The notes beneath the pieces are model-generated. The model was not told the DNA's origin and searched no databases. It was given only the letters and a program-made list of their open reading frames with translations. The translations under genes were made by a program, and so were the position numbers. From Propionibacteriaceae bacterium (GTDB lineage Bacteria > Actinomycetota > Actinomycetes > Propionibacteriales > Propionibacteriaceae), in assembly GCA_025965155.1 (NCBI GenBank), contig JAOPXN010000080.1, positions 1 to 64,000 of the forward strand: a DNA stretch of 64,000 nt, in the 5' to 3' direction. Positions 35,270 through 51,256 of the stretch are shown in pieces. The first letter of the stretch is position 1. Each line of letters starts with the position of its first letter.

Positions 35270-35437
35270 GGTTCCTCCTGCTCGTGGTGACGTGCAATTC
35301 GTCATGCACGCCTAACCGGGCAAACCCGGTACCTAAAATCTAGTCGGGCCGAAGCCCAGGTACATCAGTCGATCTTGTGGTGCAACACGCCCAGGTCGGG
35401 CTCTATTCCGCGATCCGGACGTGGGTCGCCCTGGCCC

Positions 35438-36352
35438 TCAACGCTGCACCGCCTTGGTGATCGTGGTGGCGATCGTGACCCAGTGCGCGTCCAGCGGCCG
35501 CCCGGCGCCGGCGGACTCCATCGCCCATTTGACGTTGACCATCTCCCGTACGACGACCCACGCCCGGGCTCGGTCCTCGTCCAGGTCCGCGGTGTCCACG
35601 ACCGCGTACAGCCGGTCCAGGATCGCGTTTCGCAGGTTGCCGGTTGCCACCGCTTCGTCCCAGCGGTTCCACAGTACGGGCGCCACCTCGTACGCCGGAT
35701 CACCGGACAACGGCTTCGGGTCGATCACCAGCCACGGTTCCCGGTCAGCTGCCAGCACGTTGAAGTAGTGCAGGTCGGTATGCAGCAGCGCCCCGTCGGT
35801 GGCTGGATCGGCCGCGAAGTCCCGGGCCAGCGAGGCGGCCTGCTCCACGTATCGGCGCGGCACCAGGTTGTCGACGCGCAACGCGGTGAGCTCGTTCGCC
35901 CATCGTTTCGCATGATCGGACAACCGGTCCAGCTGAGGGATGGCCGGCCGGTGCAGCCGACGGTAGAAGCCGGCAATTGTCTGGCACGCCTCCAGCACCG
36001 GCACCGTGGTCAGGTCCCGGTCGGCGTGGGCCCGCTCCAGCAGCAGCACCGACCGATGCGGATCGGCCCCGAGCAGCTGCACCGCCCCCGACCCGCCCCA
36101 GGCCCGCAGAGCCAGGTGCTCGTGCTCGGCCTCGGGATGGGGCCAGCCGAACTTGACTGCCGCCGGACGGCGCTCCGCGGTGAGCACCGGAACGACCACT
36201 GCGCCCTGCCCGGTGGCGACCGGGCCGTCCACCTGCAGCTGCCACTCAGCCAGCACCGAGGACATCAGCCGAGGCAGCCGGTCGATCCAGCGCGACCAGG
36301 AAGGGCTGATCTCGGCGAAGCGGAGGAAGTGCTCGGGGATGACGACAGGCAC
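35438..36352 (-). CDS. APH(6)-like small-molecule kinase
   Basis: A 304-residue kinase of the aminoglycoside/hydroxyurea phosphotransferase group (PF04655). AAVKFGWPHPEAEHEHLAL holds the ATP lysine. LLHTDLHYFNVLAA carries the catalytic Asp and Asn, and LVIDPKPLSGDPAYEVAPVLWNRW is the metal-binding DPK segment typical of APH(6) streptomycin kinases. Many actinobacterial chromosomes carry such genes with no known resistance phenotype, so the natural substrate may be a metabolite. It is divergent from tetR, with 110 bp between. Confidence 0.82.
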   Translation of the reverse strand: MPVVIPEHFLRFAEISPSWSRWIDRLPRLMSSVLAEWQLQVDGPVATGQGAVVVPVLTAERRPAAVKFGWPHPEAEHEHLALRAWGGSGAVQLLGADPHRSVLLLERAHADRDLTTVPVLEACQTIAGFYRRLHRPAIPQLDRLSDHAKRWANELTALRVDNLVPRRYVEQAASLARDFAADPATDGALLHTDLHYFNVLAADREPWLVIDPKPLSGDPAYEVAPVLWNRWDEAVATGNLRNAILDRLYAVVDTADLDEDRARAWVVVREMVNVKWAMESAGAGRPLDAHWVTIATTITKAVQR

Positions 36353-36462
36353 CCGGCCACCCTAGTGACCTCAACCTCCAGCGGGGGTTCGACGGACGGT
36401 TCGGCGGGGCCGCAGCGTCCAGATTCACTAACCTGCCGGATACCTCCCGGTACGATGCCCGC

Positions 36463-37077
36463 GTGGCCACCACACGTGTCTCCCGGATGCCCCGTGACCA
36501 ACGCCGGGCGCAGCTGCTCGACGCAGCCGGGGACGTGTTCACTACCAAGGGCTACCACTCAGCCGCCATGGACGACATCGCCGACGCCGCGGGCGTATCC
36601 AAGCCCGTGCTGTACCAGCACTTCCCGTCCAAGCTCGACCTCTATCTGGCCCTGCTGGACAACAGCTGCGACCGGCTGGTGGAGATCGTCGAGCAGGCTC
36701 TGGACTCCACCGAGGACAACGCCGACCGCGTGGTCGCCACGATGGGTGCCTTCTACGAGTTCGTCTCCTCCTCCAGCGGGCAGTTCAGGTTCGTCTTCGA
36801 ATCCGACCTGACCGGCGACGGCCAGGTTCAGCAACGACTCTGGCGGGTCAACAACGAGATCGCCGACGCCATCGCCGAGGTGATCTCCGACGACACATCG
36901 GTGCCCCCTGACCAGGCCAAGCTACTGGCCATCTCGATGGTCGGCATCGCGCAGGTCAGTGCCCGGTACTGGGTGTCCAGCGGGGCTCAGCGGATTCCGC
37001 TCGACGAGGCCAAACAGCTGGTCAGCAGCCTGGCCTGGCGTGGCATCCGCGGCTTCCCCCGTACCGAGCACGACTAG
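36463..37077 (+). CDS. TetR family regulator (Rv3208-like)
   Basis: A 204-residue TetR protein. The N-terminal helix-turn-helix includes RRAQLLDAAGDVFTTKGY, MDDIADAAGVSKPVLYQHF and a C-terminal all-helical ligand domain. It resembles the single actinobacterial Rv3208 family. The GTG start at 36463 is in frame with an ATG eight codons on. It could regulate the divergent kinase or itself, and it immediately precedes the ten-gene telA-FHA operon, 134 bp away. No operator palindrome is clear. Confidence 0.88.
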   Translation: MATTRVSRMPRDQRRAQLLDAAGDVFTTKGYHSAAMDDIADAAGVSKPVLYQHFPSKLDLYLALLDNSCDRLVEIVEQALDSTEDNADRVVATMGAFYEFVSSSSGQFRFVFESDLTGDGQVQQRLWRVNNEIADAIAEVISDDTSVPPDQAKLLAISMVGIAQVSARYWVSSGAQRIPLDEAKQLVSSLAWRGIRGFPRTEHD

Positions 37078-37211: not shown

Positions 37212-38474
37212 ATGACCGACCCCATGCACCCGACCGCGCCGGGCGCAGCTGCGGCACCCGCACCGCTGGCACCTCCGGACAACACCTTGACCCTGACCGC
37301 TCCGCCAGCCCCACCACCGATCACAGCCACCGCCGCGCCGGCGATGGCGCCGCAGGTCGACCCGGCCGCCGTACCGGCGCTGGACCAGCGAGTGGACGGC
37401 TTCGTTGCGGCGTTGATGGCGGCTCAGCCGCGCTCGCCCGAGTTCGCCGCCCAGGCCGCGAACGTGCAGAGCATGGGAGACGCCGACATCCGCAAGGCCG
37501 CCGAGTCGTCCAACCGGCTGCTGCAGACACCCGTCAGGGCGCTGCAGGAGGGCGGCATCGCCGAAGGGTCCAAGGTCGGCAGCACCTTGCTGGAGCTGCG
37601 CCGCACCGTTGAGGCGCTCGACCCCAGCCAGGCCACCGGCTCACGCAAGTTTCTCGGCATCATCCCCTTCGGCGACAAGGTGGTGGATTACTTCCGCAAG
37701 TACCAGAGCGCGCAGAACCACCTGAACGGGATCCTGCACAGCCTCCGCAACGGCCAGGACGAGCTGACCAAGGACAACGTCGCGCTCAACATGGAGAAGC
37801 AGAACCTGTGGGCGAACATGGGCCGGCTGAACCAGTACGTGTACGTCGCCGAGCGGCTGGACGCGAAGCTGTCCGCGGCGATCGCACAGCTGGAGCTCAC
37901 CGACCCGGAGCGGGCCAAGGCGTTCAGCCAGGACGTTCTGTTCTACGTACGGCAGAAGCACCAGGACCTGCTGACGCAGCTCGCGGTCTCGATCCAGAGC
38001 TATCTGGCGATTGACATCATCATCAAGAACAACATCGAGCTGATCAAGGGGGTTGACCGGGCCTCGACCACGACCGTGTCGGCGCTGCGGACCGCGGTGA
38101 TCGTGGCCCAGGCGCTGGGCAACCAGAAGCTGGTGCTGGACCAGATCACCGCACTCAACACGACGACGTCGGACCTGATCCAGCGGACCTCGGAGATGAT
38201 GCGCGACAACTCCGCGCAGATTCAGCAGCAGGCCGCGTCGGCCACCATCGGGCTGCCCCAGCTGCAGGCCGCCTTCGCCAACATCTACGCCACCATGGAC
38301 TCCATCGATACCTTCAAGGCGCAGGCCCTGGACACGATGGCTGCCACCATCGGCACCCTGGAGACCGAGGTGGCCAAGTCGCAGGAGTACCTGGACAGGG
38401 TGTCGAACCAGGACCAGCGGATCGCCTCCGGCAGCCTTGATCTGCAGGGCGGCACGCCCGGCACTCTACGCTGA
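37212..38474 (+). CDS. telA: TelA family protein (toxic anion resistance)
   Basis: A 420-residue TelA/KlaA protein (PF05816). An N-terminal Pro/Ala-rich tail of about 60 residues precedes a long helical domain with FLGIIPFGDKVVDYFRKYQ, VALNMEKQNLWANM and DIIIKNNIELIKGVD, typical of the family. TelA proteins occur with Ter-type tellurite and stress genes; they are cytoplasmic, largely coiled-coil, and their biochemical role is unknown. It is the first gene of the ten-gene operon, with AAGGGAA about 10 nt before the ATG and 41 nt to the next gene. Confidence 0.92.
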   Translation: MTDPMHPTAPGAAAAPAPLAPPDNTLTLTAPPAPPPITATAAPAMAPQVDPAAVPALDQRVDGFVAALMAAQPRSPEFAAQAANVQSMGDADIRKAAESSNRLLQTPVRALQEGGIAEGSKVGSTLLELRRTVEALDPSQATGSRKFLGIIPFGDKVVDYFRKYQSAQNHLNGILHSLRNGQDELTKDNVALNMEKQNLWANMGRLNQYVYVAERLDAKLSAAIAQLELTDPERAKAFSQDVLFYVRQKHQDLLTQLAVSIQSYLAIDIIIKNNIELIKGVDRASTTTVSALRTAVIVAQALGNQKLVLDQITALNTTTSDLIQRTSEMMRDNSAQIQQQAASATIGLPQLQAAFANIYATMDSIDTFKAQALDTMAATIGTLETEVAKSQEYLDRVSNQDQRIASGSLDLQGGTPGTLR

Positions 38475-38515
38475 TCAGCAGTGTTCGTTTTTCTGCCGAG
38501 ACGGTGAGGTCACCG

Positions 38516-39061
38516 ATGGGCTTCATGGATTGGGTCGCCAAGATCAACAAGCGGCCCGAACCCGAGGAGGTGGCTGTTCCGGCTGCCCCGACCGAGGACG
38601 ACATCGTCGCCGCGTTGGCGCGCGCCGAAGCCATGGTCGCCGCCGGCGCAGTGCCGGCGCCGGTCAGCTCGCGGGTCAAGAAAGTCACCGGTACGGTGCG
38701 GCAGACCCTGCCGCGGCTGGTGAACCTCGGTCTCGGCAGTCCACAGGCATACTCGGTGATGGCTACCGCCACGGACTATCTGCCCGAGGCCATCGGCGGG
38801 TACCTCCGGCTGCCCCGGCAGTGGGCCGACTCCCGACCGATCGAGAACGGCAAGACCTCGCTGCTGCTGCTGATCGACCAGCTGGACCTGCTGAGCTCCA
38901 CCATGGACAAGATCTTCGACGCCGTGGTCCGGGTTGACGCCGACGCGCTGATCGCGCACGGCCGGTTCCTGCAGCAGAAGTTCGGCCACGGCTCCGACGG
39001 CGGCGCGCTGCAGGTCCCGCCCGAGCAGACGCCTTTGCGCGGCACCCTGGACCTGCCATGA
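38516..39061 (+). CDS. uncharacterised protein of the telA-pknG operon
   Basis: A 181-residue protein, MGFMDWVAKINKRPEPEE at the start, then mostly helical with YLPEAIGGYLRLPRQWAD and LLLLIDQLDLLSSTMDKIFDAVVRVDAD. There is no signal peptide or membrane span. In other TelA loci the partner is XpaC (also a helical protein); this could be a distant relative, but I do not recognise the family with confidence. The last codon overlaps the AAA+ gene as ATGA, so the two are coupled and may act together. Confidence 0.8.
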   Translation: MGFMDWVAKINKRPEPEEVAVPAAPTEDDIVAALARAEAMVAAGAVPAPVSSRVKKVTGTVRQTLPRLVNLGLGSPQAYSVMATATDYLPEAIGGYLRLPRQWADSRPIENGKTSLLLLIDQLDLLSSTMDKIFDAVVRVDADALIAHGRFLQQKFGHGSDGGALQVPPEQTPLRGTLDLP

Positions 39062-40671
39062 GCTCCACGGACGCACCAGACAGCTCCGCGACCGACCCGA
39101 CCCCATCCCTGGCTCGGGCGCTGGCCGACTTGGAGCGGGTGGGATTGGCGGCCGGCCTGGATCCCACTGCCGTACGTGCGGAGGGCGAGTCGTTCGCCGC
39201 TGCGCTGGCCGAGTCGGCCAAGGGTGCACCGGCGGACTGGACCGAGCAGACCGGTCGGGTCGGGATGCAGGCGTTCTTCGACGCAGCCTCGCGCGGCCGT
39301 CGGTGGCGCGCTGCGCCGACCACGTTGCTGAGCCAGCTGACGGCGGCCGGGTCGGCGCACGCGGCACCGTACGCCGAGGCGCTGACCGGCGTCAGTGCAG
39401 CCGCCTGCCGGCTGGGTGAGCCGAGCATGCGGGTCGTCGGCAACGCTTCCGTCGCCTCCTCCGCCCAGCTAGCTGCGGTCCGGCCGGCCGTCGCGTCGCG
39501 TCCGGATGAGACGGCTGTTCCCGCGGAGGCAGCGGCCGAGGACGATCGCACCAACCCGCTGCTCGGGGTGCTGAGACTGACCCAGGACCACCTGGCCGAC
39601 CTGGCCCGGCTCGGTCTGGGGCGGTCAGCGGACGAGCCGATCCGCAGGTCGAGTCTGGATCTGACAGCCGACGACGCGGGCCTGCCCGGCGCCTTCCCGG
39701 GCCTCGGGTCGGCCGGACCGCCGGCAGCTCCGCCGGCCCCCAACTCGGCCAGCGTGTCCGCACCAGCCGACTCCTCGGTCGCGCCGGCACCGAGTCCGGC
39801 GGAAGAACCCGAGCCCGAGCCGCCCTCGCTGGAGGAGCTGCTCGCCGAGCTGAACGGCCTGACCGGGCTGAGCGAGGTGAAGGCGGAGATCCACCGTCAG
39901 GTTGCGGTGCTGCGGATGGAAGGGCTGCGCAGCAAGGCAGGTCTCAAGTCGGCCACTATCACCCGCCACCTCGTCTTCGTCGGGAACCCCGGCACCGGCA
40001 AGACCACCGTCGCCCGGCTGGTCGGCGGCATCTACCGCGCCCTTGGGCTGCTCTCCAGGGGGCAGCTGGTCGAGGTCGACCGGTCCGAGCTCGTCGCCGG
40101 ATACCTGGGACAGACGGCGATTAAGACCGCCGAGGTGGTCGCGTCGGCCGTCGGCGGAGTCCTGTTCATCGACGAGGCGTACAGCCTGGCCGGCGACCAG
40201 TACGGCACCGAGGCGGTCGACACTCTGGTCAAGGAGATGGAGGACAAGCGCGACGACCTGGTGCTGATCGTCGCCGGCTACCCGGACCCGATGGCGATCT
40301 TCGTGGCACAGAACCCCGGGCTGGCGAGCCGCTTCCGGACCACGATCGAGTTTGCCGACTACACCGACGCAGAGCTGGTGGAGATCTTCACCGGTCTCGC
40401 GGCCCGCACCGACTACGACGTCGTCGAGGACTGCCTGGCCCGGTTTCGGACAATCTTGGCCAGCACTCCGCGGGGTATGTCGTTCGGCAACGGAAGGTTC
40501 GCCCGGAACCAGCTGGAGGCGGCCATCGGCCGGCATGCCTGGCGGTTGCGTGACATCGCCGAGCCGACAGTCCAGCAGCTGCGGGAGCTTCGCGCGGAAG
40601 ACCTGGACGACGTGGCGGTCGAGCAGCCACCGGTCGACCGGCAACCACAGACGCAGGAGGACCCATCATGA
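39058..40671 (+). CDS. CbxX/CfqX-type AAA+ ATPase
   Basis: A 537-residue protein. The first ~255 residues are helical and Ala/Pro-rich with no known domain. The AAA+ module follows: LTGLSEVKAEIHRQV, FVGNPGTGKTTVARL near 307 (Walker A), GGVLFIDEAYSLAGD near 366 (Walker B), LVLIVAGYP (sensor 1) and a FGNGRFARNQLEAAI arginine-finger/sensor 2 segment. CbxX relatives include rubisco activase CbbX and the EccA ATPases of ESX secretion, which remodel partner proteins. It overlaps both neighbours by 4 nt. Confidence 0.9.
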   Translation: MSSTDAPDSSATDPTPSLARALADLERVGLAAGLDPTAVRAEGESFAAALAESAKGAPADWTEQTGRVGMQAFFDAASRGRRWRAAPTTLLSQLTAAGSAHAAPYAEALTGVSAAACRLGEPSMRVVGNASVASSAQLAAVRPAVASRPDETAVPAEAAAEDDRTNPLLGVLRLTQDHLADLARLGLGRSADEPIRRSSLDLTADDAGLPGAFPGLGSAGPPAAPPAPNSASVSAPADSSVAPAPSPAEEPEPEPPSLEELLAELNGLTGLSEVKAEIHRQVAVLRMEGLRSKAGLKSATITRHLVFVGNPGTGKTTVARLVGGIYRALGLLSRGQLVEVDRSELVAGYLGQTAIKTAEVVASAVGGVLFIDEAYSLAGDQYGTEAVDTLVKEMEDKRDDLVLIVAGYPDPMAIFVAQNPGLASRFRTTIEFADYTDAELVEIFTGLAARTDYDVVEDCLARFRTILASTPRGMSFGNGRFARNQLEAAIGRHAWRLRDIAEPTVQQLRELRAEDLDDVAVEQPPVDRQPQTQEDPS

Positions 40672-41996
40672 GTCAGCCGAGCCCCGCCGGGGGCCTCCCG
40701 GGCGCCACGGCCACAGCTCCGCCGCCGGTCCCCGGTGTCGCGACAGGCGCGCCGGCGACCGCGCCGGCCAGCACCCCCGAAACGGCTGCCACAGCGCCAC
40801 GAACGACCGACACACCACGCCGGCTCCGCCGGTTCACCACCGCGATGATCATCACCGGGGTGCTGTTCGGGCTCGTCGGCGCCCTGGTCTTCGCCCGGCT
40901 GGCGTACGGGATGCAGCGGGCGGAGGACAACACGGCACAGCTGATCCGGGTGCAGCAGATCCAGTCGAACCTGCTCACGGCGGACGCCACGGCGACCAAC
41001 GCCTTTCTGGTGGGCGGGCTGGAGCCGGAGGCGCAGCGGGTCAGGTACGACCAGGCCATCAACGCCACAGCGACCTTGATCGCCCAGGCAGCCGAGGCGC
41101 AGCCGGCCGACGCCGCGGCACTGGCGACGCTGAACCAGTCGGTGCTGGACTACGCGGCAGGCATCGAGCAGGCCCGCGCCAACAACCGGCAGGGCTTCCC
41201 GGTCGGCGCGCAGTACCTACGGGACGCGAGCGCCGACCTCCGCAGCCAGGCGCTGCCGGTTCTGGACAACCTGAACACCGCGAACACCGGCCGCGCGGCG
41301 GACGAGATGGAGCTCGGCCCCGCCTGGGTGTTCATCGTCGTCGGACTGCTGGCCTTGGCGGCGCTGACTGCCACCATGGTCGTGGTGGCGCGGCAGTTCC
41401 GGCGGACGATCAACGTGGGACTGCTGGCGGCCGGCATCGTCGTCGCCGTCGCCCTGGTCGGCGCGACCTTCGGTCTGGTGCAGCTGAGCAGCCACCTCTC
41501 CGATGTCCGGCAGAGCTCGTTCAGCACCGTCACCGCGGCCGCCAACGCCCGGATCCAGGCCAACAACGCGAAGTCGAACGAGAGCCTGACGTTGATCGCC
41601 CGCGGCTCGGGCGCCGGCTTCGAGAAGGCCTGGGCGACGGCGGCCGATCAGGTGCAGGGCAGCCTCGACTCCATCCCGGACGCCGACCTGCCGTCGGGCT
41701 GGAAGGCCTACGTCGACGTGCACCGTCAGATCCGCACCCTCGACGACGGTGGCGGCTGGGACAAGGCGGTCGATGTCGCCACCGGCACCGGCGCGCAGTC
41801 CTCCAACGCAACGTTCAACGCCTTCGACACAGCGGTCAGCACCGAGCTGGACTCGGCCAGCGCCTCGGTCGCCGCGGAGCTCAGCGCTCCACGGATCGGC
41901 TTGGTGATCGCCGCCCTGCTGTTGCTGGCCGCCGGGCTCGCCGCCGCGGTGCTGGCCCGCTGGGGACTGGCCCAACGGCTCAGGGAGTACCGATGA
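40668..41996 (+). CDS. glnX: GlnX-like membrane sensor
   Basis: A 442-residue membrane protein. A Pro/Thr/Ala-rich cytoplasmic tail precedes TM1 (about 57-80). A first extracytoplasmic helical domain with repeated Ala/Asn-rich helices ends at TM2 (about 222-245). TM3 (about 250-273), a second external helical domain and a last TM near 405-425 follow, with a short LAQRLREYR tail. The four-span layout with two external helical domains and the position before glnH match GlnX (Rv0412c), which relays GlnH binding to PknG. It overlaps both neighbours by 4 nt. Confidence 0.85.
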   Translation: MSQPSPAGGLPGATATAPPPVPGVATGAPATAPASTPETAATAPRTTDTPRRLRRFTTAMIITGVLFGLVGALVFARLAYGMQRAEDNTAQLIRVQQIQSNLLTADATATNAFLVGGLEPEAQRVRYDQAINATATLIAQAAEAQPADAAALATLNQSVLDYAAGIEQARANNRQGFPVGAQYLRDASADLRSQALPVLDNLNTANTGRAADEMELGPAWVFIVVGLLALAALTATMVVVARQFRRTINVGLLAAGIVVAVALVGATFGLVQLSSHLSDVRQSSFSTVTAAANARIQANNAKSNESLTLIARGSGAGFEKAWATAADQVQGSLDSIPDADLPSGWKAYVDVHRQIRTLDDGGGWDKAVDVATGTGAQSSNATFNAFDTAVSTELDSASASVAAELSAPRIGLVIAALLLLAAGLAAAVLARWGLAQRLREYR

Positions 41997-42979
41997 GTAC
42001 GAGTCACGTCCGCCGAGCCCGGCTGTTGGCGGGCGCCGTCCTGGTCGCCCTGGTGTCCGCCGGGTGCTCAGTTTTCGGCTACGAGCCGACGCCGCTACCG
42101 CCGGCCGCCCCGAGCTCCTCCCCCGGCTCGACCGCGTCCAGCGCACCACCGGCACAGTGCTCCAATGCCCTGGCCTCCTACCAGCCCAGCGGTTCGCTGC
42201 CTGCCCCCGGCCGGATGCCCGCGGGCTCGTACATGCGCACCATCCAAGATCGCGGGCGGCTGATCGCCGGAGTCTCAGCGGACACCTACCTACTCGGGTC
42301 ACGCAACCCCCTCAGCGGCCAGATCGAAGGCTTCGACATCGACATGGTCAAAGCCGTGGCCAAGGCGATCTTCGGTGACGAGAACCGCTACGAGCTGAAG
42401 GTGATCACCGCAGCGCAGCGGATCCCTGCGCTGCAGGAACGCACAGTCGACCTGGTCGCGCGGAACATGACGATCAACTGCGACCGCTGGACCCAGATCG
42501 CCTTCACGTCGGAGTACTACCGCTCGGGCCAGAAAATCCTGGTACGCAAGGGATCCAAGGCAACCACGCTGGCCGACCTGACAGGTCAGAAGGTGTGCGC
42601 ACCCAACGGCACCTCTAGCATGGCGAACCTGGTCAAGCTGGCCCCTAAGGCGGTCGCGGTCGGCTCGGACAGCCACACCGGATGCCTGGTGCTGTTCCAG
42701 CAGGGCGACGTGGCGGCGATCACCGGCGACGACACGGTGCTGGCGGGCCTGGCAGCGCAGGACCCGTACGCGGAGGTCCCGACGCAGAAGTCGTTCACCG
42801 CCGAGCCGTACGGGCTCGGGATCAACGCCGAGAACGTCGACTTCGTCCGCTTCCTCAACGCTCGGCTGGAGCAGATGCGTTCCAACGGCGAGTGGACCGA
42901 CATCTACAACAGCTGGCTGCGGGCGCCGCTCGGAGCGGCCCCGGCACCGCCCAAGGCCCTCTACGGCAGAAAGCCGTGA
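41993..42979 (+). CDS. glnH: GlnH amino-acid-binding lipoprotein
   Basis: A 328-residue periplasmic-binding-protein-3 lipoprotein with lipobox Cys at 25 (ALVSAGC). The solute-binding fold has GRLIAGVSADTYLLGSRNP, GFDIDMVKAVAKAIFGD, VDLVARNMTINCDRW and a C-terminal EPYGLGINAENVDFVRFLN. No ABC permease or ATPase is nearby, consistent with a sensory role. In mycobacteria GlnH binds Asp or Glu and signals through GlnX to PknG. Two cysteines (near 162 and 218) could form a disulfide. It ends TGATG into the next gene. Confidence 0.92.
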   Translation: MSTSHVRRARLLAGAVLVALVSAGCSVFGYEPTPLPPAAPSSSPGSTASSAPPAQCSNALASYQPSGSLPAPGRMPAGSYMRTIQDRGRLIAGVSADTYLLGSRNPLSGQIEGFDIDMVKAVAKAIFGDENRYELKVITAAQRIPALQERTVDLVARNMTINCDRWTQIAFTSEYYRSGQKILVRKGSKATTLADLTGQKVCAPNGTSSMANLVKLAPKAVAVGSDSHTGCLVLFQQGDVAAITGDDTVLAGLAAQDPYAEVPTQKSFTAEPYGLGINAENVDFVRFLNARLEQMRSNGEWTDIYNSWLRAPLGAAPAPPKALYGRKP

Positions 42980-44211
42980 TGACAGTGCCGGGCTCGCAGC
43001 TGCGCGGCACTGTCGCACCGACTGCTCCGGGTCGACTGGGCGAGGCGATCGACGTGGCCGCCGCCGGTGCCTACGTGGATGCGCTGGGTCGCTGGTGCGC
43101 CGAGCGCCAGGCCGAGCTGGCCCAGCTGGACCGGGCCGCGCTGCAGTCCCCGGACTCCGCGGCGCTGACTCACGACATCACCCTCTCGATGGCCCTGTGG
43201 AAGTCGGTGTCCGACCGGTACCAGCTGCTGCTGGCCACCTGGGACTCGGGTCGGGTCGGACCCACCGAGCGGGAACGGATGTCGTCGTTGATCTGGGGGC
43301 GGATGGACTCCACGCTGGACGCGTCCGCGCTGGGTGCCGGCGGCGGCGCTGCCACCGGCTCAAGTCTGAGCGTGTCGCTGCCGGAAGCCTGCCGGTTGTC
43401 CGACGCGCTCGCCGGACAGCTCCGGGTCCGGCTGGCCCTGGACCCGTCCGGGCTGGAGATCGCCGACCGGGTCCGGCGGCTTCGCGCTCAGCTGGAACGG
43501 ATCCGGGACCAGGTCGGACTGGAGGTGGCGGGTCCGCGGCAGCAGCAGGCGGCCAAGGAGCAGGCGCTGCTCGGCCGGCGTCTCAAGGAGGTCGCCGAGA
43601 AGGCCGCCCGCGGCGGGGATGTCGGCGGGTTGCTCGACCCGTTGGAGAACGACGCCAGCCGGTTCGAGCGCGACCTGATAGTCGGGGCCGCGACCCGCCG
43701 GGAGGCCGGCGCCAAGGTCCGCCGGGCCCGCGCGCTCCGGGCGGATCTTCAAACCCGGGAGGCCGCGCTGCGCACGCTGGCGGACTCCTGCGTGACGACT
43801 GTCTTTCCCGCCCCTAACTACGCGGTCCCGGACGTGGACGCGCTCGGGCCGGTCCCCAACACTCCCGTGACGCTGGATGCCTACCTGGCCCGGCTGGAGC
43901 AGGTGTCCCGGGCGATGAACCACGCCCAGCAGGCGTACTCCAAGGCGTTGCAGGACCGGGCGGAGCTGGTGAGCCGGTTGGAGGCTTACCGCGCGAAGGC
44001 GGTGGCGACCGGTCTGGCCGAGCACCCGGACCTGCTGCGCGCCCATGAAATAGCAACCGAGGAACTGCACCGGCGCCCCACCTCGATGCCGATCGCGGTC
44101 CAGCTGGTCACGCTCTACCAGAGCTATCTTCAGATCACTCCCAGCCGGCCCGGCCCGCCCGCCGATCCAGACAGCTCGACCCGTCCCGACAGCTCGACCT
44201 CGGAGTCTTGA
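42979..44211 (+). CDS. uncharacterised helical protein between glnH and pknG
   Basis: A 410-residue protein rich in Ala, Arg, Leu and Glu, almost entirely helical, with likely coiled coils around RRLRAQLERIRDQVGLEV, LLGRRLKEVAEKAAR and AKVRRARALRADLQTREAALR. There is no signal, membrane span or catalytic motif; the C-terminus is a Pro/Asp/Ser tail. It overlaps glnH by one base and pknG by one base. M. tuberculosis lacks a gene at this point of glnX-glnH-pknG, from memory. It may be a scaffold or a PknG substrate; I do not recognise the family. Confidence 0.85.
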   Translation: MTVPGSQLRGTVAPTAPGRLGEAIDVAAAGAYVDALGRWCAERQAELAQLDRAALQSPDSAALTHDITLSMALWKSVSDRYQLLLATWDSGRVGPTERERMSSLIWGRMDSTLDASALGAGGGAATGSSLSVSLPEACRLSDALAGQLRVRLALDPSGLEIADRVRRLRAQLERIRDQVGLEVAGPRQQQAAKEQALLGRRLKEVAEKAARGGDVGGLLDPLENDASRFERDLIVGAATRREAGAKVRRARALRADLQTREAALRTLADSCVTTVFPAPNYAVPDVDALGPVPNTPVTLDAYLARLEQVSRAMNHAQQAYSKALQDRAELVSRLEAYRAKAVATGLAEHPDLLRAHEIATEELHRRPTSMPIAVQLVTLYQSYLQITPSRPGPPADPDSSTRPDSSTSES

Positions 44212-46580
44212 TGACCACCTGTACCCAGCCCGGTTGCACCGGCTCCATCGTCGACGGCTACTGCGACGTCTGCGGCAGCCCGGGCGCCGCCGTCCAGCCG
44301 CCGGCCACGTCCGGCGCAGGATCAGCCCCCATCGCTGCCGCAGTGGCGGGTGGCTGCTCACAGCCCGGCTGCCCCGGCCAGATCCTCGACGGATACTGCG
44401 ACGTCTGCGGCTCGCCCGCTCCGGCAGTCGCCGGACCGGCACCTGAGACGGCGGCGGAATCGTCGACACCGACTGGCGGGCTCGGCCCGGCCGGCTCGAC
44501 GATCACCCGTGCCTCGGCCCGGCTCGACTCCGCCGCGCTCGGTTCGCAGCGGGCCGGCGCGGCCGGCTCCAAGATCACCAAGCGGGTGCAGAGCGGGTCG
44601 GCCAGGCTCCGTTCCGCCCGGCTGGGCGCCGGCTTGACCCGGGTGCCGCCGGCCCCGGTGGTCGACGCGTCCCAGGCGGTGATGAAGAACCCGCAGATCC
44701 CGGAGGAGAAGCGGAACTGCCCGGTCTGCGGCAACCCCGTCGGCCGGTCCCGCGACGGCCAGCCGGGCCGTACCGAAGGGTTCTGCCCGAAGTGCCGGAA
44801 CCCTTTCTCGTTCACCCCGAAGCTGAAGGCCGGTGACCTGGTCGCCAACCAGTACGAGGTGGCTGGCTGCCTGGCGCACGGTGGTCTGGGCTGGATCTAC
44901 CTGGCCCGGGACAAGAACGTCTCCGACCGGTGGGTGGTGCTGAAGGGTCTGCTCAACTCCGGCGATGCCGACGCGTTGGCGGTCGCCATCATCGAGCAGC
45001 AGTTCCTGGCGCAGGTGGAGCATCCGCTGATCGTCGAGATCTACAACTTCGTCACCCACGACGACGCCGGCTACATCGTGATGGAGTACGTCGGCGGCAC
45101 CTCGCTCAAGCAGCTCCTGAAGGCGCGGATGAAGGCCAACGGCGGCAGCTACGACCCGCTGCCGGTGGACCAGGCGCTCGCGTACATCCTGGAGATCCTG
45201 CCTGCGTTTCAGTACCTCCACGACCTCGGGCTGGTCTACTGCGACTTCAAGCCGGACAACCTGATCCAAGTCGGTGACGCTGTGAAGCTGATCGACCTCG
45301 GCGGCGTCCGCCGGCTCGACGACCAGGACTCCGCCATCTACGGCACGGTCGGCTACCAGGCGCCCGAGGTGGCGCAGGTCGGCACCACGATCGCCTCGGA
45401 CATCTACACCATTGGCCGCACCTTGGTGGTGTTGATGATGGAGTTCCGCGGCTATCAGACCAGGTACGTGGCGTCGCTGCCGACGGTCGAGGAGACTCCG
45501 CTGTTCCAGCGGTACGACTCGCTGTACCGGCTGTTGGCCAAGGCGTGTGCACCGGATCCGGCGGACCGGTTCGCCTCGATCGACGAGCTCCGGGTCCAGC
45601 TGCTCGGCGTGCTTCGCGAGGTCGTCGCCCAGCACCGCAGCGGTACGTCGCTGACGTCGGCCGCCTCGGTGCTGTTCGAGGCACCCGCCATCACCTCCGA
45701 CGCACTGGAGTGGGACCAGCTGCCGGCGCTGCGGTCCGACACCAGCGACCCCCAGTACGCCTGGCTCAGCAACATCGCCGTGGACGACCCGGCCGAACGG
45801 CTGCGGGCGCTGGACTCCGCGCCCGCGGCCACCGCCGAGGTGCTGCTGGCGCGGGCTCGGGCCGCGCTTCAGCTCGGACAGCCGGACTTGGTGGACCGGA
45901 TCTGCGCGGAGATGTTGACGGCGGACCCGTGGGAGTGGCGGGCCGTCTGGGTGGCTGGGCTGGCCGCCCTGCAGCGAAACGACTTCCGGTCGGCGCAGTC
46001 CTCGTTCAATGCCGTCTACGGCCAGGTTCCGGGCGAGCTGGCACCCAAGCTGGCGCTGGCGCTGGCCTGCGAACGCGGCGGTGAAGGGGCCATCGCCGAG
46101 AACCTGTACCGCACCTGCGCAGGCACCGACGCCAACTACGTTGCCCCGGCCGCGTTCGGCATGGCCAGGATCAGGGCCGCCCAGGGTGACGTCAACGCGG
46201 CGGTCGCCGCGCTTGATCTGGTGCCATCCACCAGCCGCGGCTACGTCGAGTCCCGCCGGCAACGTGCCTTGCACCTGTACCAGTCCGGGGACGGGCTCGG
46301 CTCGCTGGCCGCGGCGCTGGGCAGCCTGCAGGGTGTCCGGATCGACCCGGCCGAACGGGCGGAGGTGACCGCCAAGATCTTGGACCGGGCGCTGACCGTG
46401 GTCGCCGCGCAGGGGCCGCAGCCGCAGGTCATGATCGGCGACTACCCCGCCGAGGACGGTTCGCTCCGCGACGGGCTGGAGGCCGCGTACCGTCAGCTGG
46501 CCGCCGGCGCCTCAGACGAACGGAGCCGGTACGCCCTGGTCGACAAAGCCAACGCCGTGCGAAGGTGGACCCTGCGATGA
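44211..46580 (+). CDS. pknG: PknG serine/threonine kinase with duplicated N-terminal Cys ribbons
   Basis: A 789-residue soluble kinase. It starts with two ribbons of pattern C-x4-C-x8-CxxC (C4, C9, C18, C21 and C49, C54, C63, C66), each ending YCDVCGSP. The PknG rubredoxin-like module follows (C170, C173, C192, C195). The kinase has K245, YCDFKPDN with catalytic D345, and D362-LG in place of DFG. From about 500 the TPR-like tail follows. PknG phosphorylates FHA proteins such as GarA to adjust glutamate metabolism. ATG 44211 is preferred to TTG 44208. It overlaps the PP2C gene by 4 nt. Confidence 0.95.
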   Translation: MTTCTQPGCTGSIVDGYCDVCGSPGAAVQPPATSGAGSAPIAAAVAGGCSQPGCPGQILDGYCDVCGSPAPAVAGPAPETAAESSTPTGGLGPAGSTITRASARLDSAALGSQRAGAAGSKITKRVQSGSARLRSARLGAGLTRVPPAPVVDASQAVMKNPQIPEEKRNCPVCGNPVGRSRDGQPGRTEGFCPKCRNPFSFTPKLKAGDLVANQYEVAGCLAHGGLGWIYLARDKNVSDRWVVLKGLLNSGDADALAVAIIEQQFLAQVEHPLIVEIYNFVTHDDAGYIVMEYVGGTSLKQLLKARMKANGGSYDPLPVDQALAYILEILPAFQYLHDLGLVYCDFKPDNLIQVGDAVKLIDLGGVRRLDDQDSAIYGTVGYQAPEVAQVGTTIASDIYTIGRTLVVLMMEFRGYQTRYVASLPTVEETPLFQRYDSLYRLLAKACAPDPADRFASIDELRVQLLGVLREVVAQHRSGTSLTSAASVLFEAPAITSDALEWDQLPALRSDTSDPQYAWLSNIAVDDPAERLRALDSAPAATAEVLLARARAALQLGQPDLVDRICAEMLTADPWEWRAVWVAGLAALQRNDFRSAQSSFNAVYGQVPGELAPKLALALACERGGEGAIAENLYRTCAGTDANYVAPAAFGMARIRAAQGDVNAAVAALDLVPSTSRGYVESRRQRALHLYQSGDGLGSLAAALGSLQGVRIDPAERAEVTAKILDRALTVVAAQGPQPQVMIGDYPAEDGSLRDGLEAAYRQLAAGASDERSRYALVDKANAVRRWTLR

Positions 46581-47785
46581 CCATCCCCGCCTCTGGCCCT
46601 GCTGCGCCCCAGCCGCCCACAACCGCACCTGGCGCGTCGGACGGCGCTGGGCCGAGCTGCCCGAACTGTGGGGCGGAGGTCGGTCCCGGCGACAGCTTCT
46701 GTGAAGCCTGCGGGACCGAGCTCAGCCCGACCGCCACGCCGCCTGCCGCCCCCAGCGACGGCTCAGCCGGCGGGCTCGAGTCCCCGATCACCGTGTCCCG
46801 ATCCCTGCGGGCCATGGCAGTCGAGGCTCAGCAGACGGCGCCGGTCGGCCGGCCGTGCCTGAACTGCGGCGGGCTGGTCGGCGCCGACGGCTACTGCGAG
46901 ACCTGCGGAACGAAGGCGCCGAGCGAACGCGACCACTACACCGAGACCCCGGCCCAGTGGGTGGCAGCGGTGTGTGACCGAGGCATTCGTCATCATCGCA
47001 ACGAGGACGCGACAGCGGTGGCAGCCCACTCCGATCCCGGGTCGCGTGCCGTTCTGGTGGTCTGTGATGGTGTCTCCACCTCTCTGGACTCAGACGTGGC
47101 CAGCCTGGCCGCGGCGCGTGCCGCCCGGGACTCACTGTTCCTCGCCCAGCCGGCCGGACTCGGTACGCCCACCAGCCGGGCCGGCGCCATTGCTCGTTCC
47201 GTCGAAGCAGCAGCGGCTGCGGCGAACGCCGCGGTCGTCGCCAACACCGCGGCGGACAGTGACAACGCCGCCTCGTGCACGTTCGCGGCCGCGGTGATCG
47301 AAGGTGACCTGGTCGTCTTCGGCAACGTCGGCGACTCCCGGGTGTACTGGGTTCCCGACCTCGACCAGCCGGAGGCGGCGGCCGAGCTCAGCCTGGACGA
47401 CTCGGTCGCCCAGGCGCGGATCGCTGCCGGTGTGCCTCGCGAGGAAGCCGAGAACGGTCCGCAGGCGCACGCGATCATGAAGTGGCTTGGCCGGGACAGT
47501 CCCGACTTCGTGCCCCGGACCGGCGCTGTCACCCTGGCCAGCTCCGGCTGGCTGCTGGTCTGCTCCGACGGGCTATGGAACTACGTCTCTGAAGCCACAG
47601 CGCTGCAGCGGCTGATCGGCCAGCTCGACGCCGACCGCTCCGCCCCGCTGCACCTGGCCCAGGCGCTGGTCCAGTGGGCCAACCAGCAGGGCGGCAAGGA
47701 CAACATCTCGGTGGCGCTGGCCCGGCACGAGGTGGGCGTTCATGGTGCACGACCAGTTGATCATCACGATACGAGGAGAAGTTGA
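46577..47785 (+). CDS. PP2C-type Ser/Thr phosphatase with N-terminal Cys ribbons
   Basis: A 402-residue protein. Two N-terminal ribbons (C28, C31, C42, C45 and C94, C97, C107, C110) resemble those of PknG and the FHA protein. The PP2C domain from about 130 has all metal-site motifs: DRGIRHHRNEDA, VVCDGVSTSLD, FGNVGDSRVYW, LVCSDGLWN and GKDNISVA. It would remove phosphates placed by PknG. There is no membrane span, unlike PstP. The ATG at 46577 overlaps the pknG stop. Confidence 0.93.
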   Translation: MTIPASGPAAPQPPTTAPGASDGAGPSCPNCGAEVGPGDSFCEACGTELSPTATPPAAPSDGSAGGLESPITVSRSLRAMAVEAQQTAPVGRPCLNCGGLVGADGYCETCGTKAPSERDHYTETPAQWVAAVCDRGIRHHRNEDATAVAAHSDPGSRAVLVVCDGVSTSLDSDVASLAAARAARDSLFLAQPAGLGTPTSRAGAIARSVEAAAAAANAAVVANTAADSDNAASCTFAAAVIEGDLVVFGNVGDSRVYWVPDLDQPEAAAELSLDDSVAQARIAAGVPREEAENGPQAHAIMKWLGRDSPDFVPRTGAVTLASSGWLLVCSDGLWNYVSEATALQRLIGQLDADRSAPLHLAQALVQWANQQGGKDNISVALARHEVGVHGARPVDHHDTRRS

Positions 47786-47787
47786 TC

Positions 47788-49068
47788 ATGGCTGAGTTCA
47801 GCGCCGAGGTCTACCAGAACGAGTTCCTGCCTGACGGCGGGACCGACGTCAACGCCATCGTGACGATGAGCTGCACCGGCGCCGGCGAGGCGGGCCGCAG
47901 CGGCGGCGGCGAGGCCGGGGAGATCATCATTGTCGACACCTCCGGCTCGATGGGACGTACCAAGCTGGAAGCGGCGAAAATCGCCGCAGCCGCAGCCGTG
48001 GACCAGATCCTCGACGGCACCTGGTTCGCCGTGGTCGCCGGCAGCCACCAGGCGTACCTGGCCTTCCCGGCGGCACGAGCCGGGGCCGGGATGGTCAAGA
48101 TGGACCCGAGCACCCGCTTTGCCGCGCAGCAGGCGATTGCCAGATTCCAAGCTGACGGCGGCACGGCGATGGGGACCTGGCTCGTGTTAGCCGCCCGGCT
48201 GTTCGACTCGATGCCGATGCTCACCCAGCGGCACGCCATCTTGCTGACCGACGGCGAGAACCACAACGAGACCCCCGAGGGACTGGACCGGGCCATTGCT
48301 CATGTCACCGGCAAGTTCCAGTGCGACTGCCGCGGGGTGGGAGTGGACTGGCAGGTGGCCGAGGTGCGGCGGATCGCGCAGGCACTGCTCGGCACCGTTG
48401 ACATCATCCCGCAGCCGGAGCAGATGGCACAGGTGTTCGCCGAGCTGATGCAGCAGGCGATGGGGCGTGGGGTGGCCGACGCCCAGCTGCGGGTCTGGTC
48501 GCCGCAGGGCGCGCAGGTGATGTTCGTGCGGCAGGTCTCGCCCACCGTGGAGGACCTGACGAACCGGCGCAGCGAGGTGAACCCGTTGACCGGCGGGTAC
48601 CCGACCGGCTCCTGGGGTGATGAGTCCCGCGACTACCACGTCGGGGTTCGGTTGGGGGCCAAGGCGATCGGTCAGGAGCAGCTCGCGGCCCGGGTGCAGC
48701 TGGTGGTCGGGGACGCGGTCGTCGCGCAGGGTCTGGTCAAGGCAAAGTGGTCCAACGACGACACGCTGACCACCCGGATCAACCCGGAGGTCGCGCACTA
48801 CACCGGCCAGACCGAGCTCGCCGAGGCGATCCAGGAAGGGCTGGCCGCCAAGGCCGTTGGCGACGACGCGACCGCCACCACGAAGCTGGGCCGCGCGGTC
48901 CAGTTGGCCGCAGCCACTGGCAATGAGGAAGCCACGACGCGGCTCCGCAAGGTGGTCGACATCCAGGATGTGGAGAACGGTACGGTTCGACTGAAGCGGG
49001 CGGTTGACCGGGCCGACGAGATGGCCCTGGACACCGCCTCGACCAAGACCACCCGGATCAAGGGCTGA
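47788..49068 (+). CDS. vWA domain protein
   Basis: A 426-residue protein. A von Willebrand A domain (about 30-240) has the intact MIDAS: DTSGSMGRTK near residue 50, GGTAMGTWL and LLTDGENHNE. An all-beta domain follows and a helical C-terminus with repeated Ala/Thr. vWA proteins bind partners through a divalent metal and often pair with AAA+ ATPases, as in MoxR and Ter systems, so the CbxX-type ATPase of this operon is a likely partner. GAGGAG is 9 nt before the ATG. It starts 2 nt after the PP2C stop. Confidence 0.9.
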   Translation: MAEFSAEVYQNEFLPDGGTDVNAIVTMSCTGAGEAGRSGGGEAGEIIIVDTSGSMGRTKLEAAKIAAAAAVDQILDGTWFAVVAGSHQAYLAFPAARAGAGMVKMDPSTRFAAQQAIARFQADGGTAMGTWLVLAARLFDSMPMLTQRHAILLTDGENHNETPEGLDRAIAHVTGKFQCDCRGVGVDWQVAEVRRIAQALLGTVDIIPQPEQMAQVFAELMQQAMGRGVADAQLRVWSPQGAQVMFVRQVSPTVEDLTNRRSEVNPLTGGYPTGSWGDESRDYHVGVRLGAKAIGQEQLAARVQLVVGDAVVAQGLVKAKWSNDDTLTTRINPEVAHYTGQTELAEAIQEGLAAKAVGDDATATTKLGRAVQLAAATGNEEATTRLRKVVDIQDVENGTVRLKRAVDRADEMALDTASTKTTRIKG

Positions 49069-49135
49069 CCGACCTGATCCGGTCCGACCCCACCATGCAG
49101 CCCCGACTATTGAGCACTGAGCATTGGGAGCCACG

Positions 49136-49924
49136 ATGACCGCGACCTGCCCGGCCGGGCACTCCTCGACCGCCGACGACTACTGCGACGTCTGTGGGAT
49201 GCCGATCGAGGCGGTCCCGCCGGCCCCGGTAGCGGCGGCGGCGCCGACCACGTCCGCGGCGCCGTTGGGGCAGGCGTGTCCTAACTGCTCCACTCAGAAC
49301 ACCCCGGAGGCCTTGTTCTGCGAGGCGTGCGGGTACGACTTCACTACCGGCACGATGCCGCGGTCGGCAACGCCGGTGGCGGCTCCGGTCGCTGAAGCCG
49401 CGGACGGCTCGCTCGGGTCTTCGACGGCGTCGGCTGCAGTGGCCGCGCCGGGATCCTCGGCCGGGTCGCAGACGCAGCAGCCCGGGGTCGAGGCGCCCGC
49501 CGCAACGGAACGGGTCGGCTGGGTGGCGGAGGTCTGGATCGACCCCGACTGGTACCGGGCGCAGGAGAGTCCGGACCCGATGCCGTCCCCGGGCCTTCCC
49601 GTGGTCGTACCGCTCCGAGGCTCATCGGTGCTGGTCGGCCGCAAGTCCCGGAGCCGCAACATCGACCCCGGGATCGACTGCGAGCCGGACTCCGGCGCTA
49701 GCCGGCGGCATGCCCAGCTGACCACCGACGGCACCCGCTGGTGGGTCGAGGATCTGGAGTCGTCCAACGGCACGTTCGTGGCCCCGGCCAGTGGGCCGCT
49801 GCCCAAGGACCCCATCGCGGTGGGCGTCAAGCGCGAGCTCGGCTCTGACGACCGCATCTACGTCGGTGCCTGGACCCGGCTCGTGGTTCGCCCGGCCACC
49901 GACGAGGAGTCAGTTCCGGCCTGA
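49136..49924 (+). CDS. FHA domain protein with N-terminal Cys ribbons
   Basis: A 262-residue protein. Two N-terminal ribbons (C5, H9, C17, C20 and C48, C51, C62, C65) are followed by an Ala/Pro linker. The FHA domain (about 160-255) has the phosphothreonine-binding signature VLVGRKSR...SRRHAQL...SSNGTF. FHA domains bind phospho-Thr, and PknG acts through FHA proteins (GarA, OdhI). The ETTS-type phosphosite near the GarA N-terminus is not visible, so this is not plain GarA. It is the last gene of the operon, 67 nt after the vWA gene. Confidence 0.92.
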   Translation: MTATCPAGHSSTADDYCDVCGMPIEAVPPAPVAAAAPTTSAAPLGQACPNCSTQNTPEALFCEACGYDFTTGTMPRSATPVAAPVAEAADGSLGSSTASAAVAAPGSSAGSQTQQPGVEAPAATERVGWVAEVWIDPDWYRAQESPDPMPSPGLPVVVPLRGSSVLVGRKSRSRNIDPGIDCEPDSGASRRHAQLTTDGTRWWVEDLESSNGTFVAPASGPLPKDPIAVGVKRELGSDDRIYVGAWTRLVVRPATDEESVPA

Positions 49925-50057: not shown

Positions 50058-50282
50058 GTGGAGATCAAGATCGGCATCCAGCAGGTGAGTCGCGAGGTCG
50101 TGATCGAGAGCACCGAGTCGGCCGCCAGTGTGGAGACGGCCTTCACGGAGGCCTTGGAGAACGCCGGGGTGCTGACGCTGACCGACGAGCACGGTCGGAA
50201 GGTGCTGATCCAGGCCAGCTCGATCGGCTACATCGACATCGGCGAGGAGAACGCCCGCCGCGTCGGCTTCGGCTCGGTCTGA
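50058..50282 (+). CDS. DUF3107 family protein
   Basis: A 74-residue protein, MEIKIGIQQVSREVVIES at the start, ending YIDIGEENARRVGFGSV. This is the actinobacterial DUF3107 family (TB9.4/Rv3208A of M. tuberculosis), a small ATP-binding-annotated protein without proven function. AGGAGG precedes the GTG start. In M. tuberculosis it directly follows the tetR gene Rv3208; here the ten-gene telA-FHA operon lies between. Confidence 0.9.
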   Translation: MEIKIGIQQVSREVVIESTESAASVETAFTEALENAGVLTLTDEHGRKVLIQASSIGYIDIGEENARRVGFGSV

Positions 50283-50307
50283 CCGAATCGCCGTCACTAG
50301 ACACACG

Positions 50308-50374
50308 AAACTGGCACTTTACCCACGTTATCTCGTGGGTGAAGTGCCAGTTTCCCACGTTGACGTGGGAAACC
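50308..50374 (+). repeat. REP-like double-hairpin element, copy 2
   Basis: A 20-bp stem with one T-G wobble (50308-50327 with 50334-50353, loop TTATCT) is followed directly by the small hairpin TCCCACG-TTGA-CGTGGGA (50353-50370) and AACC. It matches the reverse complement of 33877-33935. The arms differ between copies in ways that keep pairing (CTCCAC/GTGGAG versus CTTTAC/GTGAAG). It lies between the convergent DUF3107 and ferritin-like genes and may also end transcription. Confidence 0.75.
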
Positions 50375-50396
50375 GGCGAACACCCAGCGGCAAAGG

Positions 50397-51134
50397 TCAG
50401 GCCTGGAGCCCCAGGGTGGCCATCCGCTTGGTGTGGTTTTCGATCAGCCGCGAGAACATCCGGCTAATGGCGGCAAGGTCCATCCCGGGGCGGTCCACGG
50501 TCCCGGTCAGCAGGCTGGTCAGGGCGTCCCGGTCGGCGGCTACCCGCTGGGCCTGGCTGAGCGCCTCACCGACCAGTCGCCGGCCCCAGAGGGCGAGCCG
50601 CCCGGCCACCTTCGGGTCGGCGGCGATGGCGGCGAGCACCCTCTCCACCACGAAGTCGGCGTGCTCGTCGTCGTAGAGCACCTCATACACCAGCGTCCGG
50701 GTGTCGGCGTCGACGAACGCGGCGACCTCACGGTAGAAGTCGGCGGCGAACCCGTCGCCGACGTACGCCTTGAGCAGCCCCTCGAGCCACGTCTTCGGTG
50801 CGGTGTACTCGTGGAACGCGTCGAAGGGTGCGTGGAACGGCTGCATTGCCACCATCACGTCGGCGTTCAGCTGGGCCAGCCGGGAACGGATCCGGCGAAA
50901 ATGCTCGATCTGCTGAGCCGACATCTGCGCAATGTGCACCTTGTCGGCCAGGGTGGGGGCCAGCCGGGCATCCTCGGCTAGCCGCTCGAACGCGGACAGC
51001 TCGCCGTACGCCAGCACCCCCAGCAGGTCGATCGCACCGTCCCGGTAGTGCTCGTCATCGGCCAGCGCGTCGGTGGCGCCCGTCTCCGGGATTTCGATGT
51101 CGGAGGTTTCGATCGGGGCCGGTACGTCGCTCAT
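50397..51134 (-). CDS. ferritin-like domain protein (Rv3210c-like)
   Basis: A 245-residue protein with an acidic N-terminal tail, then a four-helix ferritin-like domain: AIDLLGVLAYGELSAFERLAED, AQMSAQQIEHFRRI, LVYEVLYDDEHADFVVERVL. The spacing of E-x-x-H and E/H residues is like di-iron proteins such as MiaE, but the metal site is not certain. It is conserved next to the DEAD-box helicase in actinobacteria; the function is unknown. It is divergent from that helicase gene. Confidence 0.82.
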   Translation of the reverse strand: MSDVPAPIETSDIEIPETGATDALADDEHYRDGAIDLLGVLAYGELSAFERLAEDARLAPTLADKVHIAQMSAQQIEHFRRIRSRLAQLNADVMVAMQPFHAPFDAFHEYTAPKTWLEGLLKAYVGDGFAADFYREVAAFVDADTRTLVYEVLYDDEHADFVVERVLAAIAADPKVAGRLALWGRRLVGEALSQAQRVAADRDALTSLLTGTVDRPGMDLAAISRMFSRLIENHTKRMATLGLQA

Positions 51135-51256
51135 GGGAGCAACCCTACGGCGATTCTGACCGGTTCAGGCTAGACTGGGTGCGTACGCAACGTTGAGTGC
51201 GTCCCTGAGTCCTGGCACCGCTGCTTAAGCGATGTGCTGGACGGTCAGGTGAACTC

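Follow-up and report, generated by a model that had tools for sequence, protein, structure and literature searches.

A conserved ten-gene operon joining the PknG pathway to a TelA/AAA+ module

The stretch analysed here, 64,000 nt of a Propionibacteriaceae contig (JAOPXN010000080.1; hereafter the window), carries at 37212-49924 ten plus-strand genes encoding, in order, a TelA family protein, a small helical protein (g2), an AAA+ ATPase, a GlnX-family transducer, a GlnH-type lipoprotein, a second helical protein (g6), PknG, a PP2C phosphatase, a vWA protein and an FHA protein; all of the ten claimed in a first-pass annotation of the same DNA are present. The architecture is secure, i.e. a conserved ten-gene operon in which the PknG pathway is joined to a TelA/AAA module. 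Gene content, kept order, conserved overlapping stops and starts and a shared tree branch suggest that the ten genes form one operon in the strict sense. The earlier proposal that they make up a single module, equipped with a phosphatase and an FHA protein of its own, is borne out by the conserved content and order, the overlapping stops and the tree branch.

Conservation, junctions and distribution of the cluster

Gene order was read, using one profile per gene built from the window proteins, across 80 named loci (the best 80 of at least 575 PknG relatives) and 80 stretches around PknG places chosen from genomes of the class, giving 160 loci plus the window. Full flanks, set at no less than 8.7 kb upstream of the PknG frame and 4.2 kb downstream, are present in 51 loci (the window and 50 named loci). 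In 45 of the 51 the ten genes stand in identical order, and the cluster is therefore not a chance assembly. The exceptions are three loci without GlnH (L059, L073, L076), one with vWA and FHA swapped (L051), one without GlnH and with g2 and AAA in one frame (L056), and Nostocoides jenkinsii (L081), which has AAA to PknG only. Without the flank filter all ten genes are found in 52 of the 80 named loci, the remaining 28 comprising 23 stretches shorter than 20 kb and five full-length exceptions (L056, L059, L073, L076, L081). The first-pass annotation had proposed a search for co-occurrence of the ten families as its check and non-conservation as its refutation; the extra genes beside pknG proved to be strongly conserved. 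The flanking genes vary: among 68 loci of the ten-gene type, tblastn at 1e-8 gave DUF3107 in 8, DEAD-box in 6, ferritin-like in 4, TetR in 2 and MoeZ in 0, counts which are lower bounds given short stretches and a short query. The frame in L056 (L056:5356-7614) is a single open one, with the g2 match at residues 28-166 and the AAA match at 191-727, and may be either a natural fusion or an assembly frame error.

Within the window, five junctions overlap by 4 nt (g2-AAA, AAA-GlnX, GlnX-GlnH, GlnH-g6 and PknG-PP2C) and the g6-PknG junction by 1 nt (TGATG at 44209-44213), the others being gaps of 41 nt (TelA-g2), 2 nt (PP2C-vWA) and 67 nt (vWA-FHA). These gaps are those reported previously; the seven overlapping junctions claimed alongside them reduce to six, the earlier figures summing to ten junctions where only nine exist. 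Scans for consensus promoters (0 found, 0.4 expected from shuffles) and terminators (3 found, 3.2 expected) gave no excess, so the argument for co-transcription rests on gene spacing and conservation. The latter was assessed by counting stop codons lying inside ATGA, GTGA or TGATG, with no start codon chosen, in 68 loci plus the window (three duplicate loci being left out of 71). Such stops end AAA in 67/69 and g2 in 58/68 cases, and in the receptor and kinase part they end GlnX in 67/69, GlnH in 56/63, g6 in 66/69 and PknG in 66/69; the corresponding counts are 52/65 for vWA, 8/69 for TelA, 6/69 for PP2C and 7/62 for FHA, the last gene. The count for AAA places the seam between the TelA/AAA and GlnX/PknG parts among the tightest junctions, and the internal breaks of the cluster are those between TelA and g2 and between PP2C and vWA.

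Across a sample of 393 genomes of the class, PknG_TPR was found in 151, TelA in 71 and VWA_3_C in 105. Genomes with VWA_3_C almost always carry PknG as well (101 of 105); of the four without PknG, three score 23 to 26 bits, close to the cut-off of 25.8, and the fourth, G015, scores 53 bits. Conversely, 50 genomes have PknG without VWA_3_C, of which family f5 accounts for 36. Of the genomes with TelA, 53 also have PknG and 18 lack it. In the order to which the window belongs (families f1 and f2), PknG is found in 12 genomes, and TelA and VWA_3_C in those same 12, with 20 of the 20 PknG-less genomes among those listed lacking both. All ten genes are present in 9 of 11 f1/f2 stretches, the exceptions being L182, where the contig is split with TelA, g2 and AAA on another contig, and G371, and in the sole f12 locus.

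Other families carry shorter forms. A core of PknG, PP2C, vWA and FHA without TelA or AAA is found in 34 of 49 stretches of three of them (f16, 15/19; f17, 10/20; f18, 9/10) and in 1 of 16 from f5, whereas GlnX-GlnH-PknG alone is the common form in f5 (11/16) and f41 (2/2). The PknG of one f5 locus (L102) aligns with the solved M. tuberculosis kinase from end to end (1389 bits) and that of another (L100) fits best to 7mxb, which we take to be the C. glutamicum kinase; we therefore treat f5 as the Mycobacterium/Corynebacterium family. Additional f5 PknG copies (L104, L105, L107, L160) have no GlnX or GlnH match within the 17 kb stretch.

A midpoint-rooted PknG tree was built from 85 rows selected among these loci. 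Its 26 ten-gene rows form one branch (SH-aLRT, an approximate likelihood ratio test, 100) beside f17, and the seven-gene form is spread across several branches, with L106, a seven-gene f5 locus, at the base of f5. Most simply, the tree is explained by a single joining event for TelA, g2 and AAA and by reduction to the three-gene form, although, with a midpoint root, there may instead have been gain elsewhere. A bolder reading, tentative and to our minds somewhat doubtful, is that Mycobacterium and Corynebacterium retain in their three-gene operon a pared-down relic of an older seven-gene module, a receptor-kinase-phosphatase-FHA-vWA-scaffold switch for a phospho-regulated complex, which in the Propionibacteriales/Intrasporangiaceae/Kineosporiaceae branch would drive a TelA/AAA+ envelope-remodelling machine, with GarA control being one output.

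A putative phospho-signalling module and its alternatives

We propose that the operon specifies a phospho-signalling module which runs from membrane to cytoplasm and acts on an effector coupled to it, an explanation that, taken whole, we give an even chance. The lipoprotein GlnH would bind a small amino acid (an acidic side chain is plausible, but not secure) and signal via GlnX, the conserved C-terminal tail of which would dock on the tetratricopeptide repeat (TPR) domain of PknG, so switching the kinase on. PknG would then phosphorylate its operon partners; the zinc-ribbon FHA protein would serve as the reader, while resetting would fall to the zinc-ribbon PP2C, and the helical g6 and the vWA protein, which bears a metal-ion-dependent adhesion site (MIDAS), may assemble a complex. 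In this clade the switch would control the AAA+ ring, which on the inner side of the envelope may remodel TelA and g2. Gene linkage makes PknG outputs beyond GarA likely; control of TelA/AAA by PknG we infer.

Several observations weigh against this reading. The 80 named loci were the top PknG matches and are thus a biased sample, and shared descent means that the distribution and conservation counts are not independent. In eight loci GlnH is missing from its position between GlnX and g6. The TelA-g2 and PP2C-vWA junctions have few overlap-type stops, as given above, and in L012, L032, L038 and L082 the PP2C and vWA frames lie 1-4 kb apart; in G371, from the same genus, VWA_3_C lies ~12 kb away from the PknG_TPR match. 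TelA and AAA are found in none of the 67 PknG stretches from f5, f16, f17, f18 and f41, so PknG does without them in those families, and in one f29 locus (L169:7534-10580) TelA stands directly before the same AAA type with no PknG genes, from which it follows that the TelA-AAA pair can stand alone.

The last two observations are also those expected if the genes are only co-expressed, i.e. if a PknG-GarA switch and a TelA/AAA envelope-stress machine are needed together with no phosphorylation link between them, as is the presence of GarA- and OdhA-like genes in the window's genome. Against mere co-expression, the seam between the two halves has overlapping-type stops in nearly every locus, and the TelA of the window's own order is confined to the 12 genomes with PknG; we consider this alternative unlikely, albeit a serious contender.

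A conflict or anti-phage role akin to the kinase-PP2C-vWA theme of the GAP1-N2 GTPase systems appears a good deal less probable. PMC7159879 reports genes for a zinc-ribbon kinase, a PP2C and a lone vWA in actinobacterial GAP1-N2 systems; as there, an adjacent zinc-ribbon kinase, PP2C and stand-alone vWA are found here. In the present operon, however, the kinase is a PknG with rubredoxin and TPR domains, and a receptor, FHA, TelA and AAA take the place of the GTPase partners; no GAP1 or GTPase family gene is among the ten, the rest of the genome not having been searched. Moreover, PADLOC matches only the kinase and AAA domains, in two of the ten proteins, and in the PknG tree the ten-gene rows fall together on one branch instead of being scattered.

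A Ter-type metal or tellurite stress system, the link with which was drawn in the first-pass annotation, is very improbable: a TelA family member is in the operon, vWA genes adjoin TelA elsewhere in the class, and Ter systems have, like the operon, a vWA-PP2C-kinase triad (TerY-P), but TerD gave 0 matches in the genome and TelA is the only one of the ten with a Ter family match in Pfam or NCBIfam.

Returning to the signalling module, the metabolic arm of PknG is probably retained, because genes of that arm lie elsewhere in the genome. On another contig is a GarA-like FHA gene (G000:C83; L162:1345-1869) scoring 163 bits with NF041660, below its cut-off of 200. Its product carries an N-terminal zinc ribbon and, ahead of the FHA domain, a TTKT stretch; the gene preceding it reads by eye as gcvH. 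An OdhA-like frame of 1301 residues, which contains the 2-oxoglutarate dehydrogenase C-terminal domain, is also present. The operon FHA gene is itself not GarA/OdhI (NF041660 18.6 bits, cut-off 200), and given the GarA- and OdhA-like genes elsewhere, its product would be a second, extra reader.

Component proteins

Eight of the ten genes have clear families, the window copies of g2 and g6 having none in Pfam or NCBIfam. TelA (37212-38474, 420 residues) scores 307.8 bits with PF05816 (cut-off 30), and no solved relative was found at E 0.1. The g2 protein (38516-39061, 181 residues) has no Pfam match in its window copy; its AlphaFold model (mean predicted local distance difference test score, pLDDT, 85) is helix almost throughout and gave no match in a fold search against the PDB at E 0.001. 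The g2 profile does match seven TelA-adjacent proteins of other families (99.8% match, E 7e-30), and we therefore assign g2 as a TelA partner. Among 20 TelA stretches from elsewhere in the class examined with the window-gene profiles, a g2-like frame was found in 15 (including the split own-type L182), AAA in one and neither in four; in the three stretches tested, the gene adjoining TelA carries a vWA domain, accompanied in two of them by a solute-binding domain.

The pairing of TelA with a small partner recalls the XpaC-TelA pairs of Firmicutes (xpaC-yaaN; Listeria lmo1966-lmo1967), although here the partner fails the XpaC model and AAA and PknG are present. The XpaC model PF10112 gave no match in 36 g2 rows, the seven TelA-adjacent relatives or the window's genome. 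A profile comparison (hhalign) of g2 with one XpaC sequence gave a weak match, at E 0.001 and 22% probability, four controls giving E 0.2-0.64; the matched XpaC frame, in L185, adjoins by eye a TelA-like frame. Kinship between g2 and XpaC is thus only suggestive. PMC3498285 places B. subtilis xpaC-yaaN in the core sigma-W list, and PMC12791056 cites work in which disrupting Listeria lmo1967 raised susceptibility to nisin; the place of TelA/XpaC genes in Firmicutes envelope-stress responses supports the reading of TelA/AAA as an envelope effector.

The ATPase (39058-40671) belongs to the CbbX/SpoVK/EccA group, with AAA and AAA_lid_6 over cut-off and CbbX (3syk) and EccA1 (9lur) as its nearest solved relatives. 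It differs in having its own N-terminal extension of ~250 residues and in falling below the three NCBIfam equivalog cut-offs (CbbX 205/459, SpoVK 259/423 and EccA 225/467 bits). Walker A and B patterns are present in 79 of 79 loci.

GlnX (40668-41996), a predicted membrane signal transducer, is over the NF058618 subfamily cut-off (290.9 versus 250 bits) and under that of NF041460, the equivalog for PknG-activating GlnX (103 versus 780). It ends in QRLREYR, and the pattern R..[ED][YF]x closes GlnX in 139 of 142 loci, GlnH-less copies included. Short cytoplasmic termini of GlnX have been proposed as TPR ligands in PMC6069109, and conservation of the tail, also without GlnH, fits that proposal.

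GlnH (41993-42979; SBP_bac_3 89 bits; lipobox by eye) has M. tuberculosis GlnH (6h2t, E 1e-60) as its best solved relative. In that protein, as given in PMC6069109, the ligand side chain is contacted by R147, T162 and W232 and the alpha-group by S164, R169 and D250. With the numbering transferred from the DIGSN loop, the window protein keeps R169 and D250, has Thr in place of S164, and of the side-chain contacts keeps R147 alone, T162 and W232 being replaced by Asn and His. Within the ten-gene group R169 and D250 are found in 77 of 77 rows, S164 is Thr in 71/77 (as it is in 6/11 non-gap f5 rows), T162 is Asn in 66/77 and W232 is never Trp. With two of the three side-chain contacts changed, sensing of Asp/Glu, which the first-pass annotation had attributed to GlnH outright, cannot be assumed. 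W232 is kept in 13 of 132 non-gap rows, every one from f5 or f41; its change was considered as a mark of operon type and rejected, since the seven-gene f5 locus L106 retains Trp and the change therefore tracks lineage. In the loci with no GlnH between GlnX and g6 (L016, L033, L038, L056, L059, L067, L073 and L076; Micropruina and others), a diverged GlnX is retained along with the adjoining genes of the module, up to where each contig ends, and to judge from this gene content these loci represent natural loss of the putative input lipoprotein at this locus.

The g6 protein (42976-44211, 411 residues), a proposed scaffold, has an AlphaFold model of long helices (mean pLDDT 90.5) that gave no match against the PDB at E 0.001. 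A Pfam scan of 40 g6 rows gave scattered weak matches, with none of the 25 families shown being shared by more than 4 rows. Of 41 seven-gene-type loci, 23 have a frame matched by the g6 profile, with scores of 24-44 bits; compared with g6, 18 of the 23 frames (six each from f16, f17 and f18) gave 94-96% probability over 70-85 columns close to the C terminus, five control families giving <1%. In f16, f17 and f18 these relatives sit upstream of pknG.

PknG (44211-46580) has two N-terminal zinc ribbons (by eye) followed by rubredoxin, Hanks-type kinase and TPR domains, the Pfam models for the latter three all being over cut-off (PknG_rubred 86, Pkinase 102, PknG_TPR 185 bits); 2pzi is a solved relative (E 1e-140), and its nearest relatives among the matches listed are from Propionibacteriaceae, e.g. 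Microlunatus and Friedmanniella. The catalytic Lys and the HRD-type Asp are each conserved in 140 of 140, and the DLG Asp in 140 of 141, of the non-gap positions in 161 rows. For the PP2C phosphatase (46577-47785; PP2C_2 and DZR over cut-off, the zinc ribbons being N-terminal) and the vWA protein (47788-49068; VWA_2 and VWA_3_C over cut-off; 4fx5, E 1e-117), respectively, the metal-binding Asp residues and the residues of the intact MIDAS motif show 100% or close to 100% conservation among non-gap rows.

The FHA protein (49136-49924) also has N-terminal zinc ribbons (FHA 38.1 and Zn_Ribbon_1 28.4 bits, both over cut-offs). Its alignment is half gaps, with the Ser conserved in 43/43 and the second Arg in 34/42, and a strict FHA pattern is present in 56 of 116 FHA frames; the case for FHA competence is therefore confined to the window copy. 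The zinc-ribbon motif GYCDxCG was tried as a common handle and rejected, being found among the named loci in PknG in 76/80, PP2C in 49/78 and FHA in 0/64, and missing the window form DYCDVCG.

Known PknG systems and genomic setting

Compared with the GlnX-GlnH-PknG-GarA/OdhI pathway of Mycobacterium and Corynebacterium, the window's system is alike in its receptor, lipoprotein and rubredoxin/TPR kinase and in the GarA- and OdhA-like genes of its genome; it differs in seven more operon genes, extra PknG zinc ribbons, its own phosphatase and FHA protein and an altered GlnH pocket. The accessible parts of the PknG papers (PMC6069109, PMC8546545, PMC9769921) describe glnX-glnH-pknG only, although figure 2B of the first, which is from STRING, may show further neighbours. 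The first-pass annotation regarded the system as its best candidate for an undescribed one; the GlnX-GlnH-PknG triad is known and the kinase-PP2C-vWA triad has been described in another setting, but for the extended operon no description was found among the open-access papers listed, as judged by titles and the start of abstracts. A 2005 survey of kinase domains was the single paper among them to combine PknG and vWA.

In the accessible parts of the literature cited, PknG has hitherto been studied through the three-gene operon and GarA/OdhI, and its operon neighbours here suggest that it may do more than its known metabolic job. If many PknG-bearing actinobacteria outside Mycobacterium and Corynebacterium indeed carry the phosphatase, FHA, vWA and scaffold genes, other roles of PknG become testable in culturable hosts that are harmless, and TelA would gain a named upstream switch and a partner ATPase.

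The window's genome (G000) is of 4.49 Mb in 134 contigs. Rfam and tRNA scans of the 64-kb window gave no matches. The operon is flanked by a TetR gene on one side and a DUF3107-like gene on the other (window 34097-37077 and 50058-52966). The TetR/DUF3107/MoeZ/ferritin-like/DEAD-box flank order resembles what we take to be a conserved actinobacterial block, the gene names likewise being presumed.

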